From contig JAFGTD010000248.1 in assembly GCA_016934295.1 (NCBI GenBank), forward strand, positions 1-35,408: a stretch of 35,408 nt of DNA, in the 5' to 3' direction. Below are positions 8,623-20,169 of the stretch, piece after piece (the stretch's first letter is position 1; each line of letters starts with the position of its first letter). Under the pieces are notes generated by a model. It was not told where the DNA came from. It worked only from the letters and a program-made list of their open reading frames with translations, and searched no databases. The stretch comes from Acidobacteriota bacterium (GTDB lineage: Bacteria; Acidobacteriota; UBA6911). The translations under genes were made by a program, and so were the position numbers.

Positions 8623-8702
8623 CGGCCTCCGGCAACGCCGGACCGCGTCCGGCGAAGCTTGGCCGAATCTTCGATTCGGCTAAGCGAAGCCGGATTGAAT
8701 AT

Positions 8703-8831
8703 CCTGTGACTCCGGGTGAGTTTTCAGGGTCGGTATCGGAATCGGTGTTAAAAGCTCGACCCCGATACCGATTCCGACCCCGACGCCGATAGATTCCCGG
8801 CCCAGCTTTTTGCTTCGAAAAGAGTCACAGG
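8703..8831 (+). mobile_element. MITE-like element, copy 1 (10-base terminal inverted repeats)
   Basis: The element starts CCTGTGACTC (8703-8712) and ends GAGTCACAGG (8822-8831), perfect 10-base inverted termini around 109 bases. The interior has TCGG-xx hexamer runs (TCGGTATCGGAATCGG and, inverted, CCGATACCGATTCCGACC) that would fold into a long hairpin around TTAAAAGCTCGA. There is no coding capacity. A second, clearly homologous copy lies inverted at 19202-19340. Whether it moves by a transposase in trans is inference; no target-site duplication is obvious. Confidence 0.6.
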
Positions 8832-8837
8832 CCGGGA

Positions 8838-13764: not shown

Positions 13765-15969
13765 ATGTCAAAAATTATTGCAACCAAAGCGATCCGGGGC
13801 GCCCACGAACTGGTGAAACGCGCGGAGAAGGAACTGGCGCAGGCTGTCGAGGAAAAGGGGCCCGATACACGGGTGGAATTCCCCAATACCGCCTACTACC
13901 TGCCCATCTCCCACGGCATATTGGGATTGAATATCGAAACCCTGGGAGGGCTCCATGAATTGCTTGCGGAAGCCAAAAAACTTCTACCGCCGATCCCGGG
14001 GGATACGCTGTGGCTGCCGTATCTGGGCAACACGCTCGATGCCGGGATGGCCGCCCTTTTCGCGGACGAAATCATTGAAGCAATAAAATATACGCAGGAT
14101 CCGCTGCCGTACCTGACTGAGCTGAATCCCTCGGACGGACGGCTCTGGCTGGGGGCGGCGAACGATGTCATTTTGAGAGAAAGGGGCATTGAATTCGTGG
14201 ACGGAACCGCGCCGGGATTCGCGGCCTGCGTGGGATGCTGCCCGAGCAACGAAATTGCGGTTAGTGTCGCCCGGGAACTGCAGGAGAAAAATCTTTATGT
14301 TTTCATGTCCGCCGGCAACGACGGCAGGTCCATGGCGCATCAACTCGAAGAGGAGGGCATCGAGATGGGATGGGAAACCCGTCTCGTTCCTTTCGGCGAA
14401 GACGTAACCGCAACCATACATGCGTTGGGGTTTGCCACACGCGCCGCACTTTCATTCGGCGGGGCGCGGCCCGGAGACTACGACCGCATCCTGCGCTATA
14501 ACAAAAACAGGGTATTTGCCTTCGTTCTCGCCTTCGGTCCCGTGGACGACCTCAAGCACGCCCAGGCGGCAGGCGCCATCAACTTCGGATTTCCCGCCAT
14601 TGCTGAAACCGATATCGGCCGGATACTTCCCAGCGGAATCTGCACCTACGAACATGTCGTATCTCCCGTAGAGCCGGATAAGATCGTGGCGAAGGCCATC
14701 GAGGTCCGGGGTCTCAAGGTTACCGTTTCCAAGGTTCCCATCCCCGTTCCCTACGGTCCCGCTTTCCAGGGGGAGCGCGTCCGTGCGAAGGATACGAGCG
14801 CGGAACTGGGAGGGTCCACCCTGCCCGGGTTTGAATTCGTAACATCGAAGGACCTGGATGAAGTAGAGGACGGCAGGATTGAAGTGATCGGGCCGGAGAT
14901 TGACGATATCGAAGAGGGGGCGTCCCTGCCCGTCGGGATATGGGTGGAGGTCGCCGGAAGAGAAATGCAGGAGGATTTCGAGCCCATTCTGGAACGCCAG
15001 ATCCACGATTTGATCAACGGCGCCCACAGCATTTTCCACATGGGGCAGCGGGACATCAACTGGATCCGGATCAGCAGGGAAGCCAAGGAGAAGGGCTTCA
15101 AATTCAAACACCTGGGTTCCATCCTTCATGCCAAACTCCACGGCGAATACGGCAAGGTTTTCGACAAGCTGCAGGTGAAAATCTATACCAGGGAGAAAGA
15201 GGTTTTGGAGCTTCTCGATCAGGTGCGTGCCGTTTATCGGCAGCGGGACGCCCGCCTCGCGGACATGACCGACGAGTCGGTAGAGACCTATTATTCCTGC
15301 GCGCTCTGCCAGTCCTTTGCCCCGAACCATGTGTGCATCATTACGCCCGAACGCTCCGGTCTCTGCGGCAGCTATAACTGGCTGGACGGCAAGGCGGCCC
15401 ATAAGATCAATCCAACGGGGCCGAACCAGCCGGTAAACAAAGGGGCGGTGATCGATCCGGTCAAAGGGCAGTGGCAGGGTGTCAACGAATTCGTCTATAA
15501 CAGCTCGCACAAGAGCCTGGAAATTTTTAACGCCTACAGCATTATTGAATACCCGATGACCTCGTGCGGCTGTTTCGAGTGCATTTCATGCCTGCTGCCG
15601 TCGACCAACGGCATCATGGTTGTCTATCGCGAGTTCCCCGATATGACTCCTGTCGGAATGAAGTTTTCCACGCTGGCCGGTACGGTGGGAGGCGGCGTCC
15701 AGACGCCCGGATTTATCGGCCACAGCAAGCACTATATCGGGAGCCGAAAATTCATCCTGCCGGAAGGAGGGGCCGGCCGGATTGTCTGGATGAACTCCCG
15801 GCTCAAGGAGGAAATGGCGCCGGTACTGAAAAAGATCGGAGAGGAAAAGGGGATTGAAGACTTCTACGGCATGATCGCCGATGAGACGGTGGCGACGACG
15901 GAAGAAGAAGTGCTCGAATACATAACGAAGGTGAATCATCCGGCACTGGCGATGCCGTCGCTCTTTTAA
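13765..15969 (+). CDS. acsB: Acetyl-CoA synthase catalytic subunit (CODH/ACS alpha)
   Basis: AcsB condenses CO, a methyl group from the corrinoid iron-sulfur protein, and CoA into acetyl-CoA at the Ni-Ni-[4Fe-4S] A-cluster. The 734-residue protein has the full set of A-cluster ligands with the family spacing: C512, C515, C524 and C534 (CALC...C...C), and the distal-nickel C601-G602-C603 in SCGCFEC. The N-terminal domain that meets CooS is present (MSKIIATKAIRGAHELV...). The gene starts 3 bases after cooS and looks intact to the TAA at 15967-15969. Its usual partners acsC/acsD do not follow directly; an antisense block begins right after the stop. No terminator is visible. Confidence 0.97.
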   Translation: MSKIIATKAIRGAHELVKRAEKELAQAVEEKGPDTRVEFPNTAYYLPISHGILGLNIETLGGLHELLAEAKKLLPPIPGDTLWLPYLGNTLDAGMAALFADEIIEAIKYTQDPLPYLTELNPSDGRLWLGAANDVILRERGIEFVDGTAPGFAACVGCCPSNEIAVSVARELQEKNLYVFMSAGNDGRSMAHQLEEEGIEMGWETRLVPFGEDVTATIHALGFATRAALSFGGARPGDYDRILRYNKNRVFAFVLAFGPVDDLKHAQAAGAINFGFPAIAETDIGRILPSGICTYEHVVSPVEPDKIVAKAIEVRGLKVTVSKVPIPVPYGPAFQGERVRAKDTSAELGGSTLPGFEFVTSKDLDEVEDGRIEVIGPEIDDIEEGASLPVGIWVEVAGREMQEDFEPILERQIHDLINGAHSIFHMGQRDINWIRISREAKEKGFKFKHLGSILHAKLHGEYGKVFDKLQVKIYTREKEVLELLDQVRAVYRQRDARLADMTDESVETYYSCALCQSFAPNHVCIITPERSGLCGSYNWLDGKAAHKINPTGPNQPVNKGAVIDPVKGQWQGVNEFVYNSSHKSLEIFNAYSIIEYPMTSCGCFECISCLLPSTNGIMVVYREFPDMTPVGMKFSTLAGTVGGGVQTPGFIGHSKHYIGSRKFILPEGGAGRIVWMNSRLKEEMAPVLKKIGEEKGIEDFYGMIADETVATTEEEVLEYITKVNHPALAMPSLF

Positions 15970-16079
15970 CAGATTAAAGTGTAAGGGTTGACGGCATAGC
16001 CCGGGATATCACCATCTCACAGAAAAACGGTTTCGGCGGTGGCCGCCCCCACGTCAACGCCGGCCACCAACATACTCAT
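15970..16079 (-). pseudogene. Remnant of a BadF/HgdC-type activator ATPase (archerase), N-terminal fragment
   Basis: Reading on the reverse strand from an ATG at 16079, with a good ribosome site (GGGGAAAGAGG) just upstream, the translation is MSMLVAGVDVGAATAETVFL and then a TGA at 16017-16019. Without that stop the frame continues DGDIPGYAVNPYTLIC, so the archerase-like pattern (V-DVG-A-T at the phosphate-binding loop, then D-G-x-I-x-GYAVNP) persists to about residue 31 before it ends at the acsB stop. Activator ATPases of 2-hydroxyacyl-CoA dehydratases are about 260 residues and start this way. The position, 43 bases after the dehydratase-like pair and on the same strand, is where the activator gene is often found. 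I interpret it as a gene truncated by a rearrangement and further broken by a nonsense mutation. It is far too short to be functional. Confidence 0.7.
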
Positions 16080-16122
16080 ACCTCTTTCCCCGGTGCCTTT
16101 GGCACTTTCTATAAATGCCACC

Positions 16123-17520
16123 TCATCTGCCTTTTTTTGCTTTAAGCATGAGAGCAAACGTTTCCACTTTGGTTCTCATAGAAGCTGCACTATAAGCCCT
16201 GCTGTCGAAATTATCTATTTCGAGGGAAAGGACCGGAAGGCCGGTTTTTTCTTCCAGGTATTTCTTCTGAATATGGGAAATTGTCGCAACGGGGCGGCAA
16301 TTATAGAGGTATTGGGCAATAAAACCATCCAGTTTCATCAATTCGGCCGCCCTTTCGTATAACCGGATTTGCCCCTCGGTACCGTGGTAATAGCCTCCCT
16401 CCATTTCATATTCGGCAATTATTTCACCCGCTGTCCCGTAATTCTCCCCGGATTTTACTTTGACGCCCCCCCTGCTGGCTAATATGTAGGTAAGCGGAAC
16501 AGCCAGCCCCGCTTCTTCAAATAACCGTGTTACCCTTGGATCAGAAGTATGCCCCAACCGGACCATGACCCTGGGGGCTCCCTTTTCCGTTACCCCGACG
16601 CCTGCTTCAACCCGTTTTTCCAGCTCATGGATCAGGATATCCATGGCCTTGATTCCTTCCTGGATGCCACTTCCGGTTGAAGAGCCTGAAAGCGCTTCCA
16701 GCAGTTCAAGTTCCACCAGGCTGACCGGTACAGGGTCGGCTTTCATCACTTCCGTCAGCTTTGCGAGGTTGTCCCTGAAGGGTTGACTGTTTTTCCGGGA
16801 CCTTTCCCAGGCATCAGACGCTATCTCAATTCCTAAAACCTTCTCGGCCTTTTCAAAAGCCTGGTTTATGCGGGCTCCCAGATAATGTACCCGCTCCGGC
16901 AGATACTCGGGGTATTCTCCCCACTTAGAATCCATGATCCCGTCAATATAGGCTATGGGAACCCCGTACAGCGCCGTCACAAGATCATCTGCCTTGGATC
17001 CCATATCGCAGTAATAACTGGAAGCTAAGGCAAGGTCCGGTACGGGGATCATGCCCTTTGCGATACCGCCTATCTTTGCCTGCCACAATGAGCAGAGGGC
17101 GTGTCCGGGAGGGAGTCCGTTGGCCTCGCCTGCTTCGAGTAAGGGATCAAGTTTATTGAAAATTTGCCCCATGGTATGATTCAGCACCATGTCTGGGGCA
17201 CTCACAAAAACCTCCTCCGAAGAGGCTCTCAGCATCAGGCCTGGCCCCAGTATTGCGGGAAATCCAAAGTACACAATTTTTTTACCCTCTTCCCTGGCCA
17301 GGACCAGGTCGATGAGCTCCTTAAGCCAGGCCCCCAGTAACTTCCTTACCCCTTCCAGCGATACGTCATGATGCCGCCTCACACGGCTATCGGCCGTCTC
17401 CATATCATCGGGACCTATCCCCAGTTTCTCAAACGACGCCTCTATCCTGGATCTTTCCTTTTCGATTTCCTCATGCTCAAATCCGCAGAGACTGAAAAGT
17501 TCATCGTAATAATTTCCCAT
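16123..17520 (-). CDS. 2-hydroxyacyl-CoA dehydratase/BcrC-type protein, large cluster-binding subunit
   Basis: A 465-residue member of the HgdA/HgdB-BcrB/BcrC-double-cubane protein superfamily. These proteins bind [4Fe-4S] or [8Fe-9S] clusters and catalyse radical dehydrations or low-potential reductions after ATP-driven electron injection by an archerase. All three expected cluster cysteines are visible: C143 (HALCSLWQ), C171 (YYCDMGSK) and C408 (YNCRPVA). The C-terminus has the family pattern GLPVLSLEIDNFDSR followed by RTKVETFALML. The ATG at 17520 lies 3 bases after the stop of the partner gene, with AGAGGG upstream. The substrate is unknown: dehydratase, aryl-CoA reductase and double-cubane small-molecule reductase are all possible. 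It is antisense to the surrounding acs genes. Confidence 0.8.
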   Translation of the reverse strand: MGNYYDELFSLCGFEHEEIEKERSRIEASFEKLGIGPDDMETADSRVRRHHDVSLEGVRKLLGAWLKELIDLVLAREEGKKIVYFGFPAILGPGLMLRASSEEVFVSAPDMVLNHTMGQIFNKLDPLLEAGEANGLPPGHALCSLWQAKIGGIAKGMIPVPDLALASSYYCDMGSKADDLVTALYGVPIAYIDGIMDSKWGEYPEYLPERVHYLGARINQAFEKAEKVLGIEIASDAWERSRKNSQPFRDNLAKLTEVMKADPVPVSLVELELLEALSGSSTGSGIQEGIKAMDILIHELEKRVEAGVGVTEKGAPRVMVRLGHTSDPRVTRLFEEAGLAVPLTYILASRGGVKVKSGENYGTAGEIIAEYEMEGGYYHGTEGQIRLYERAAELMKLDGFIAQYLYNCRPVATISHIQKKYLEEKTGLPVLSLEIDNFDSRAYSAASMRTKVETFALMLKAKKGR

Positions 17521-17523
17521 GAC

Positions 17524-18666
17524 CTACCCTCTTATTGTCTCCATGAATGTCTCGATACGTGTTTTCATAGGTTCGGTCTCCACGGCATCGTAATCAGACT
17601 CCAGGACAAGCATGGGGAGTCCGGTCTGTTTTTTTAATATGCCGGAGAAAAAGTATGACTCAACCTTATACGACTCGCGGTACAACAGCTGGTACCAGAT
17701 CAATCCGGATGCGTTATACTCTCTGGCCAGCCTGATCAGGAAATCAAGGCGTTCTGTGCCGGGACGGAACCAACCCGGGCATATGCGATCCATGAAATAG
17801 GTCTCAGCCAGGCCGGCAAGGAGGTCCCCCCCGACCTTTACACTGTCCCAGTAAGGGCGAATCCCCTCCGCGAATTCCTCCATGACTATGATTCCACCGT
17901 TGTCCGATACTATGTCCATTACCTTCGAGTCTCCCCGTGCAAGGGTGGATCCGGTATACAGTATTCTGGGAGCATCCCCGAAAACAGGCGAATCATCGCT
18001 GACTTCTTTGATAAACTGCTCAAGTATGTCGACCATGGTCTCTTTATCAGCCAGAAAAGAGCCGTGATTCAGGGCGACAAAATCCCTGCCGGACACGGAA
18101 ACGTTCCTGCGCTTTCTCATCCGGCTTATTTTTCTGAAAAGCTCCCTTTCCCGGTTACACAACTCTATGGACTGCTTGAGCCTCGATTCGGTGATTTCAA
18201 CTCCCGTGAAATCCTCGAGCATTTTCTTCAGCCTGACTATGCCTTTAAGGTAATACTCCAGAGCGACTTTGTCCTTCACATGCGGAACACCGAAGACGAA
18301 CGATTTTATTCCAGGAGTATAAAACCCGACTGTGTTTGAAAAGGCACGGACATGGTTGTCGGTTATTGGAACGACAATAAGATCCACAATGCTGTAGTAC
18401 GGGTCCTTTCCTGAGGTAAGGTAACCTGCCTGACTGCGCCAGAAAGGATCGAACCATCTGCAGATATAGGCGCCGGAGTTCCTTAATACGGTATTATCTC
18501 CAGCCTGTATAAAACACAGGGGTATCGCGCCACAGGCCAATATAAGTTCTTCCGGTAAAAAGCCGCCGGCGGAATATCCTATAATCTTCTGCCCCCGCTC
18601 CTTTGCTTTACTCAAATCCTTAAGTCGCGACTCCAGATGCGCGTCCAGCTTCGCAAGGGCATTCAT
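17524..18666 (-). CDS. 2-hydroxyacyl-CoA dehydratase-like protein, small subunit with incomplete cysteine set
   Basis: A 380-residue protein of the same superfamily, recognised by GFLPEELILACGAIP near residues 35-49, CRWFDPFWRSQAGYLTSGKDPY at 69-90, and the C-terminal GLPMLVLESDYDAVETEPMKTRIETFME. The positions that normally read T-C-D and F-C-x-x-Y are PITDNHVR and LLYRESY here, so two of three usual cluster cysteines are missing; C69 remains. It may bind no conventional cluster and serve as the partner of the larger subunit. The start at ATG 18666 is fixed by AAAAAGGAG ending 6 bases upstream; the ATGs at 18672 and 18705 give longer forms but fit the ribosome site badly. It is first in the minus-strand block. 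Confidence 0.78.
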   Translation of the reverse strand: MNALAKLDAHLESRLKDLSKAKERGQKIIGYSAGGFLPEELILACGAIPLCFIQAGDNTVLRNSGAYICRWFDPFWRSQAGYLTSGKDPYYSIVDLIVVPITDNHVRAFSNTVGFYTPGIKSFVFGVPHVKDKVALEYYLKGIVRLKKMLEDFTGVEITESRLKQSIELCNRERELFRKISRMRKRRNVSVSGRDFVALNHGSFLADKETMVDILEQFIKEVSDDSPVFGDAPRILYTGSTLARGDSKVMDIVSDNGGIIVMEEFAEGIRPYWDSVKVGGDLLAGLAETYFMDRICPGWFRPGTERLDFLIRLAREYNASGLIWYQLLYRESYKVESYFFSGILKKQTGLPMLVLESDYDAVETEPMKTRIETFMETIRG

Positions 18667-19200
18667 TCCCATCTCCTTTTTAGAACTGCCGGCAGGGATT
18701 TTCATCCTCGCCGGTCCATCCGGTTATCTGTTTGTTGTAAATGACGCGGTGCGAAAAACGAACGCCTGTTTCTTCAATCTCGTTCCCTGTCGCAACCTGA
18801 CTTCGGTTTCCGATAAGATGCCTTGCGTTGTTTCGTTGAATTTCAAGCCTCGATTTTACTAAGCTTTGCACAGGATTCGGCAAAAAAAACCGGAAAATGC
18901 ATAAATATATTCACGGTCAGAATTACGGTTGATCGAAAAGGGCTCTAATCGAAATAATTTTATTATACTGCCGGGAATCGGGTGCAGGAATCCCGGGATA
19001 CCTTTCAAGGTTAAATCGCGGCAAAGATTCTCAAGCCGGCGTCGCTTGTCAGCCGAAGCTTTAGCGGAGGCTGATGCCTTTGCCGGAATGCATACATTCG
19101 CATGAAAGCTGAATCTGATAGAAAATTTTCCTAATCCATTTTTCCCTGATAAGATAGGGCCTCGATCCGGTTATCCTGCATGTCTGCCGGGCGTCACTGG
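18667..19200. other. 534-base non-coding spacer between divergent dehydratase and acs blocks
   Basis: No convincing gene is visible. A 67-codon reverse-strand frame at 18680-18883 (ending GEDENPCRQF) has no family I recognise and lies just before the dehydratase-like start. An AT-rich stretch at 18888-18968 may contain promoters; a 6-base-pair stem CCGGGA (18971-18976) / TCCCGG (18991-18996) follows. The 19030-19080 stretch (AGCCGAAGCTTTAGCGGAGGCTGA) resembles dispersed intergenic sequence. Confidence 0.45.
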
Positions 19201-19201
19201 C

Positions 19202-19340
19202 CTGTGACTCTTTTCGAAGCGAAAAGCTGGGCCGGGAATCCATCGGCGTCGGGGTCGGAATCGCTATCGGGGTCGAGCTTTTAAAACCGATTCCGATTTC
19301 GACTCCGATACCGACGCCGAAAACTCACCCGGAGTCACAG
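19202..19340 (-). mobile_element. MITE-like element, copy 2, inverted relative to copy 1
   Basis: The element is bounded by CTGTGACTC (19202-19210) and GAGTCACAG (19332-19340). Its reverse complement matches the copy at 8703-8831 through almost its whole length, including GGGTGAGTTTTC, TTAAAAGCTCGACCCCGATA, ATTCCGACCCCGACGCCGAT and GATTCCCGGCCCAGCTTTT. It is longer by about a dozen bases in the TCGGTA hexamer run. It ends 73 bases before the acsF-like start. The two copies enclose about 10.4 kb. Confidence 0.62.
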
Positions 19341-19413
19341 ATTGTTTAATCCGGGTACCAACCGGAGGCCGGGCCGGCATTGGGGAGAGTCACGGTAAGG
19401 AGCGGGATGGAAG

Positions 19414-20169
19414 ATGACGAAGACAATTGCGATCACCGGAAAAGGCGGCACCGGCAAGTCAACCCTCTCGGCGGTCGCGGTGCGCTGGTTGAGCGACCAT
19501 GTTTCCAAATCCATCCTGGTTGTGGATGCGGATTCCAACGTGAACCTGAACGATCTTCTCGGTGTGGAACTCAGGGAGACGGTGGGCGGCATCCGGGAGG
19601 AAATGAAAGAGAAGGTGCAGTCGATACCGGGCGGCATGACCAAGCAGCAGTTCCTTGAGTATAAAATTCAGTCGAGTATCGTGGAAACTCCCGATTTCGA
19701 TCTCATTGCCATGGGGCGCCCGGAAGGGCCGGGATGTTACTGTTATGCCAACAGCATTCTCCGGGATATTCTGAAGACATTGTCCGGGAATTACGAGTAT
19801 GTCGTTATCGACAACGAAGCCGGCATGGAACACCTGAGCCGGCGAACAACCGCCGGGATCGATTATCTGTTGATGATCTCGGATCCGACCGTGCGGGGCA
19901 TTCACGCCGCGGGGAGAATTGGAAGGCTTATCGCGGAACTGGATACCCGGGTGCGGGAGAAATACCTGATAGTGAATCGGCTTCGCGATCCATTGCATCA
20001 AGCAGCAACGGACAGTATTGGTGCCGAGGGGCTGCAACTCCTCTGTACGGTGCCTGAAGATGAGCTGCTGACGGAAACGGACCGGCGCGGTGAGTCCATC
20101 TGGTCTGTTGCCGACAGGTCCGAACCGTACAGAATACTCGGCGGGATATTCGAGCGGTTGTTCGTTTGA
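19414..20169 (+). CDS. acsF: AcsF/CooC-type nickel-insertion ATPase (second paralogue)
   Basis: A 251-residue MinD-like ATPase with P-loop KGGTGKST at about residues 10-17, the VDADSNVNLNDLLG switch segment, a CxC pair at C108 and C110 (GPGCYCYAN), and VVIDNEAGMEHLSRR. This is the AcsF/CooC group that matures the nickel sites of CODH and ACS. It leads the second half of the acs locus, next to acsD and acsC, which favours a role on the A-cluster of AcsB, although CooC and AcsF cannot be separated by sequence reading alone. The ATG at 19414 is preceded by AAGGAG at 19397-19402 (11 bases) and GGAAG immediately upstream. It differs clearly from the cooC at 7796, so it is not a recent duplicate. 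Confidence 0.88.
   Translation: MTKTIAITGKGGTGKSTLSAVAVRWLSDHVSKSILVVDADSNVNLNDLLGVELRETVGGIREEMKEKVQSIPGGMTKQQFLEYKIQSSIVETPDFDLIAMGRPEGPGCYCYANSILRDILKTLSGNYEYVVIDNEAGMEHLSRRTTAGIDYLLMISDPTVRGIHAAGRIGRLIAELDTRVREKYLIVNRLRDPLHQAATDSIGAEGLQLLCTVPEDELLTETDRRGESIWSVADRSEPYRILGGIFERLFV

Follow-up and report, generated by a model that had tools for sequence, protein, structure and literature searches.

Remnant of an archerase gene between an HGD-D gene pair and acsB in a draft Acidobacteriota genome

A short reverse-strand stretch between the large-subunit gene of an HGD-D pair and acsB is very probably what remains of the activator (archerase) gene of a cassette with the order small subunit, large subunit, activator, namely a pseudogene truncated to its 5′ end. 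It lies in a contig of 35,408 nt, referred to here as the window, which is the whole of contig C13 in the draft genome of an uncultured Acidobacteriota bacterium (5.45 Mb, 343 contigs, 93.8 % complete). In the explanation we favour, a fragment that comprised both structural genes but no more than the initial ~100 bp of the activator gene would have come to lie in reverse orientation between acsB and cooC, and the parts of the activator for the ATPase body and the Fe-S cluster would have been lost at the acsB junction. Truncation and insertion may have been a single event. The pair, if used, would be activated in trans and take its ATP-driven low-potential electrons from another archerase, most plausibly the one encoded on contig C51 of the same genome. 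The features are listed in Table 1.

The stub itself is ordinary gene decay, a gene fossil, though an unusually clear example. The interest lies in the insertion in the acs operon, in a pair that is orphaned yet constrained, and in the unusual small subunit. Together they cleanly illustrate one way in which a radical-enzyme-like cassette of three genes can be left without its ATP-dependent activator, and provide a natural test of archerase interchangeability within one cell. Among the matches listed, nothing in the literature deals with decayed archerases or archerase sharing. Relative to the first-pass annotation of this DNA, which was made from the letters alone, the insertion context, the differing cassette sites in congeners, a metagenome-assembled genome (MAG) with reciprocal losses and the small subunit without the usual Fe-S cysteines are new.

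Table 1. Positions of the remnant and of neighbouring features in the window
Feature	Position	Strand	Remarks
acsB (acetyl-CoA synthase)	13765..15969	+	intact; stop codon 15967-15969; tail to tail with remnant
Inferred insert in the acsB-cooC stretch	15970..19413		acsB-cooC spacing 13 bp in G350 and 15 bp in G308 (closest AcsB found)
Junction, end of activator homology to acsB stop codon	15970..15983		14 bp
Activator (archerase) N-terminal remnant	15984..16079	-	~32 codons, truncated on the 3′ side; from sequence and comparison with L020
In-frame TGA of remnant	16017..16019	-	Gly, Gln, Lys, Gly, Gly in five intact relatives
HGD-D (PF06050) large subunit	16123..17520	-	465 aa, intact
HGD-D small subunit	17524..18705	-	393 aa, intact
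Dispersed repeat copy	19197..19378		~180 bp; cooC-proximal end of insert
cooC-like ATPase gene	19414..20169	+	next acs gene beyond insert

Identification of the remnant

Read through its internal stop, the frame between the large HGD-D gene and acsB runs from an ATG at 16079-16077(-) as M-S-M-L-V-A-G-V-D-V-G-A-A-T-A-E-T-V-F-L-stop-D-G-D-I-P-G-Y-A-V-N-P-Y-T-L-I-C-stop, and the final stop overlaps the end of acsB. The closest relative of the large subunit is found in a genus-mate (genome G009, locus L020; 89 % identical), where an intact 264-aa activator directly follows the pair, at the place occupied here by the stub. This activator begins VHMLVAGVDVGAATAKTVILGDGRILGHAVNP, and the window counterpart is MSMLVAGVDVGAATAETVFL-stop-DGDIPGYAVNP. 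Over 32 residues the two are 75 % identical (73/96 nt), and nucleotide identity falls abruptly beyond 15984, to 21/83 nt. On comparison with L020, the ancestral start was probably the second ATG (16073), which has GAGG upstream.

The L020 activator is itself closely related to archerases of solved structure, namely 9GAI chain D (MbdQ; E 2.3e-60), 4EHT (E 5.3e-60) and 1HUX (E 4.3e-55). When it was used as a tblastn query, the remnant was recovered with E 5.8e-9 from the window and E 2.5e-7 from the entire genome, and among the 12 matches in the genome only the remnant contains an internal stop. The remnant is thus homologous to the first ~32 residues of the archerases (BadF/BadG/BcrA/BcrD ATPases; PF01869, TIGR00241). 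Profile searches alone would be compatible with a chance resemblance of non-coding DNA to an archerase N-terminus, as no Pfam model was matched even at E up to 10 and TIGR00241 gave 12.7 bits (E 0.068), short of its curated cut-off of 125.4; hence the case is carried by synteny and not by profile search. However, the BLOSUM62 local score against the L020 activator is 113, whereas none of 2000 shuffles scored above 48, and this score, the genome-wide E value, the syntenic position and the level of identity refute chance, the probability of which we consider negligible. The remnant shares descent with archerases. Annotation models miss such stubs, and synteny finds them.

The first-pass annotation had described an archerase N-terminus on the reverse strand after the pair, broken by a TGA and ending where the acsB stop begins. 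The N-terminus is confirmed, as a stretch of ~32 codons with significant similarity to archerases, and the TGA is exactly where it was placed. The described end holds for the read-through frame, the stop of which overlaps the end of acsB, but not for the homology, which ends 14 nt short, at 15984.

Extent of decay

Activator homology extends to a Pro codon at 15984, and the last five residues of the read-through are non-homologous. With nothing homologous past residue ~32, both the ATPase body and the cluster-binding part are gone. In archerases, according to the account of the cluster in PMC11574389, two cysteines per monomer bind a shared [4Fe-4S] cluster, and the remnant retains neither these Fe-S cysteines nor the ATPase body.

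Changes are also found within the part that remains. In the region corresponding to the phosphate-loop motif D-x-G-x-x-x-x-K, the residues DVGAATA are kept, but the Lys, present in 5/5 intact activators of the subfamily, is replaced by Glu. We take this Lys to be that of the first phosphate motif, with a role in the phosphate loop. The remnant has changed two of the 14 positions that are invariant across the five intact relatives, this Lys included, and in a leave-one-out control the intact activators themselves had changed 0/14, 1/15, 1/15, 4/18 (L025) and 0/14. Over 29 codons, pN/pS for the stub is 0.29 against L020 and 0.22-0.47 against the other four intact activators, compared with 0.14-0.39 for the same segment among the intact activators. 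The substitutions alone are no proof of decay, and there is little decay beyond the truncation, the stop and the Lys. Consequently, either the activator appears to have been lost recently or the TGA is conceivably an error. The truncation is independent of the TGA and stands in both cases, and the stub makes no activator.

The start codon and a GAGG-like ribosome site have been kept and the frame is open as far as the TGA, as would be expected of a retained functional element, either a 20-aa product acting as a leader or small peptide, or a selenoprotein in which the TGA encodes selenocysteine. But at the position of the TGA the residue is Gly, Gln or Lys in the five intact relatives and Cys in none, and the RNA following the TGA folds no better than shuffled sequences (z -0.57; 47/200 at least as stable). 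On these two observations selenocysteine or read-through was rejected, and the 37-residue product would in any case be without the activator body and cluster cysteines. A retained element of either kind is very improbable, and a truncated pseudogene remains the preferred reading.

The cassette in related genomes

Relatives of the large subunit, 69-89 % identical, were found at seven loci in the genome collection (L020-L026). An intact activator of 261-281 aa lies straight after the large subunit in five of them (L020, L022, L023, L025 and L026), which corresponds to five of the six loci with readable downstream DNA. The contig of L021 ends at the gene, and L024 has no activator. The complete three-gene cassette that the first-pass annotation had proposed should be looked for in relatives exists, with the archerase at the same place, and neither of the refuting conditions named there, lack of similarity to archerases or unrelated non-coding DNA at this position in relatives, applies.

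The only relative locus with the pair but without the activator, L024 (1282-3843), shares a MAG, Zod_Metabat.1351, with the activator-bearing copy L022. In the latter, the large subunit and activator are present and the small subunit is represented only by fragments (residues 11-37 and 375-393; L022 5864-5994). This MAG is a second case of piecemeal loss from the cassette, in this instance reciprocal.

With identities of 69-89 % among loci in MAGs titled Acidobacteria, Bacteroides, Deltaproteobacteria, Spirochaetes and Dehalococcoidia, the trio appears to have spread horizontally as a cassette. Among the frames of at least 100 aa in L020-L026 (6.9-13.4 kb each), only the pair matched window proteins and no acs gene lies beside the trio. 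Hence, proximity to acs genes seems to be particular to this genome, and a functional link of this HGD-D subfamily to acs genes was rejected on the same ground.

The position of the trio in the genus-mate was also considered as a source. In G009 the trio adjoins the gene at C53:42151-43131, and contig C9 of the genome studied here is syntenic with this flank (five genes, 70-83 % identical), but lacks the trio over the 1.9 kb that remain before the contig ends (none of the three proteins matched below E 0.03). However, three other congeners (G001, G003 and G008) likewise have other genes at this site, and we do not favour movement of the cassette from there, as independent placement fits at least as well. 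For the gene flanking the G009 trio on its other side, there are only 47-56 % matches in the genome, one of them at a contig edge.

Probable insertion in the acs operon

The acs region of the window contains, in order, genes for a CooC-like protein (7796), an FAD oxidoreductase (10236), CooS/AcsA (11854) and AcsB, then the reversed HGD-D pair, followed by genes for the second CooC-like protein (19414), AcsD, AcsC and RACo. A search of 396 genomes of the phylum for relatives of AcsB gave a match at E <= 1e-100 in nine, including the genome itself. The gene following acsB is visible in five of the eight others (L049, L050, L051, L072 and L073). The acs (Wood-Ljungdahl) operons of G350 and G308 (AcsB 79 and 76 % identical, respectively) have the same genes in the same order, acsB-cooC-acsD-acsC-RACo, at ~66-80 % identity. 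However, acsB and cooC are only 13 bp apart in G350 and 15 bp apart in G308, whereas in the window they are separated by 3.4 kb that contain the HGD-D pair and the stub. In none of the five loci where the gene after acsB is visible is that gene HGD-D. Because acsB-cooC is uninterrupted in G350 and G308 and HGD-D does not follow acsB in any of these five, the 3.4-kb stretch is, on this comparison, most readily explained by insertion into the acs operon. With the homology ending 14 bp from the acsB stop, this supports the earlier proposal that a former three-gene cassette lost its activator at acsB.

Nine congeners (G001-G009) were searched and an acsB match was found only in G005, at 41 %, so the acs operon itself was probably acquired, or else lost in the remaining congeners. 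GAPDH, PGK, TIM and SecG are contiguous in G003 and G008. In the window, ~31 kb (3118-34061) with acs, HGD-D and cell-surface-type genes part PGK from TIM. Eight genes lie between RACo and TIM in the window. Relatives of five of them are found, inverted, on the G009 contig before TIM, where the FAD and HI0933-like genes also have relatives, oriented as in the window, and no frame there matches acs or HGD-D. From the contiguity in G003 and G008 and the inverted block without acs in G009, the PGK-TIM region is rearranged, and acs and HGD-D are additions.

The main alternative is an assembly chimera or local error, in which the activator would be intact in the organism itself, and the contig would join the start of the activator to the end of acsB in error, or have a miscalled stop, or both. 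The assembly is a draft with the number of contigs and completeness given above, and no second genome carries the same junction. Nevertheless, no missing part of the activator turned up elsewhere in the assembly, where matches do not exceed 44 %, and the match at a contig edge (C16) is only 39 % identical and part of a 969-aa frame. Both the stop and the altered Lys are upstream of the junction and would not be explained by a false junction. The contig also carries the dispersed repeat of this genome twice, together with the genus-typical GAPDH, PGK, TIM and SecG genes, so it is not grossly misbinned. We consider an assembly error unlikely, and truncation of the activator gene in the genome remains the preferred explanation.

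The HGD-D pair

The first-pass annotation spoke of a dehydratase-like pair from a dehydratase/reductase cassette. Both subunits match PF06050 (110.7 and 226.4 bits, cut-off 28.4). The label dehydratase/reductase is a loose one, as the small subunit is without the canonical cluster cysteines. In having two PF06050 subunits in tandem, the pair resembles component D of the 2-hydroxyacyl-CoA dehydratases (HgdAB/HadBC), next to which an archerase gene is normally found. In 2-hydroxyglutaryl-CoA dehydratase, as described in PMC8473912, there is one [4Fe-4S] cluster per subunit, with three cysteines each. PMC11971306 gives Cys95/128/380 as the ligands in BzdO and Cys36/73/100/263/293/327 as the double-cubane ligands in BzdN.

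The large subunit has three cysteines, C143, C171 and C408, conserved in all seven subfamily copies aligned; C171 and C408 align with cysteines of MbdO, and C143 is outside the aligned stretch. In contrast, HMMER alignments to HadC and DCCP place Asp, Asp and Arg in the small subunit at three conserved cysteine positions, which we read as those of cluster ligands, and this pattern is found in 6/6 copies aligned, that of the window included. The HadB and HadC equivalog models scored far under their cut-offs (34 vs 750 and 74.6 vs 700 bits). The best solved relatives of the small subunit are DCCP (6ENO; E 2e-34) and BzdN of the class I benzoyl-CoA reductase BzdNO (8S02 chain B; E 2e-25), though the aligned cysteines are not conserved. 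Likewise, the DCCP model NF040772 gave 201.7 bits against a cut-off of 350, with the aligned cysteine positions lost.

Because the small subunit is without the canonical cluster cysteines while the large subunit keeps three conserved cysteines, we do not file the pair as either a canonical dehydratase or DCCP. In function it is probably reductase-like, a heterodimer fed by an archerase, and it may represent an undescribed single-cluster subfamily with the cluster site in the large subunit. A wider proposal, that such a one-cluster-site subfamily is a mobile cassette across phyla of anaerobic habitats, re-wired here to a non-cognate archerase and possibly in the service of acetyl-CoA synthase or its corrinoid protein as an ATP-driven reductase, would be a long shot. 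An HGD-D pair with a small subunit lacking the usual cluster ligands nevertheless deserves to be pointed out.

Relative to L020, dN/dS is 0.09 for the large subunit and 0.12 for the small subunit. Numbers of non-synonymous and synonymous changes (N:S) were assigned to branches using L021 for polarization, after 34 ambiguous sites per gene had been left out. On the window branch they are 18:43 (0.42) for the large and 23:32 (0.72) for the small subunit, and on the L020 branch, where the activator is intact, 35:69 (0.51) and 35:58 (0.60), so that the window value is slightly above that of L020 for the small subunit and below it for the large. Otherwise invariant positions are broken in 7/283 (large) and 3/201 (small) cases in the window, and in 9/285 and 5/203 in L020. 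The pair is under purifying selection with no visible decay. Relaxed selection is not clearly seen in the branch counts, though a recent loss of the activator would leave no trace.

Other archerases in the genome

A search of the genome for archerases elsewhere, also suggested in the first pass, returned 11 PF01869 matches on eight contigs, the remnant not among them, and there are eight PF06050 matches, including the two in the window. No orthologous activator was found in the 93.8 %-complete genome. As the best match to the L020 activator, on C51, is only 44 % identical, relocation of the activator within the genome was rejected. The C51 activator follows a paralogous pair (31 and 36 % identical to the window pair), and it is proposed as the substitute for this reason. 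It is not a proven substitute, as its N-terminus has no specific similarity to the remnant (score 43, shuffle maximum 45) and nothing in that region marks it out. Another archerase is available in the cell, and the pair may use it.

Repeats and a second acs fragment

A lone 96-bp fragment at L091 (C110:1178-1273 of the same genome), with no other window DNA matched within the 9 kb looked at, is 79 % identical to the 3′ part of acsB (window 15847-15942) and would be a second acs fossil in this genome.

The dispersed repeat at the cooC-proximal end of the insert is partly palindromic, and its second copy in the window is at 8690-8833. With 40 of 153 candidates scored, the genome contains at least 42 matches, including the query itself, the others being up to 94 % identical. 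Matches in G009, G001 and G008 are weaker and often partial. The repeat is possibly a REP/MITE-like element involved in the rearrangement.
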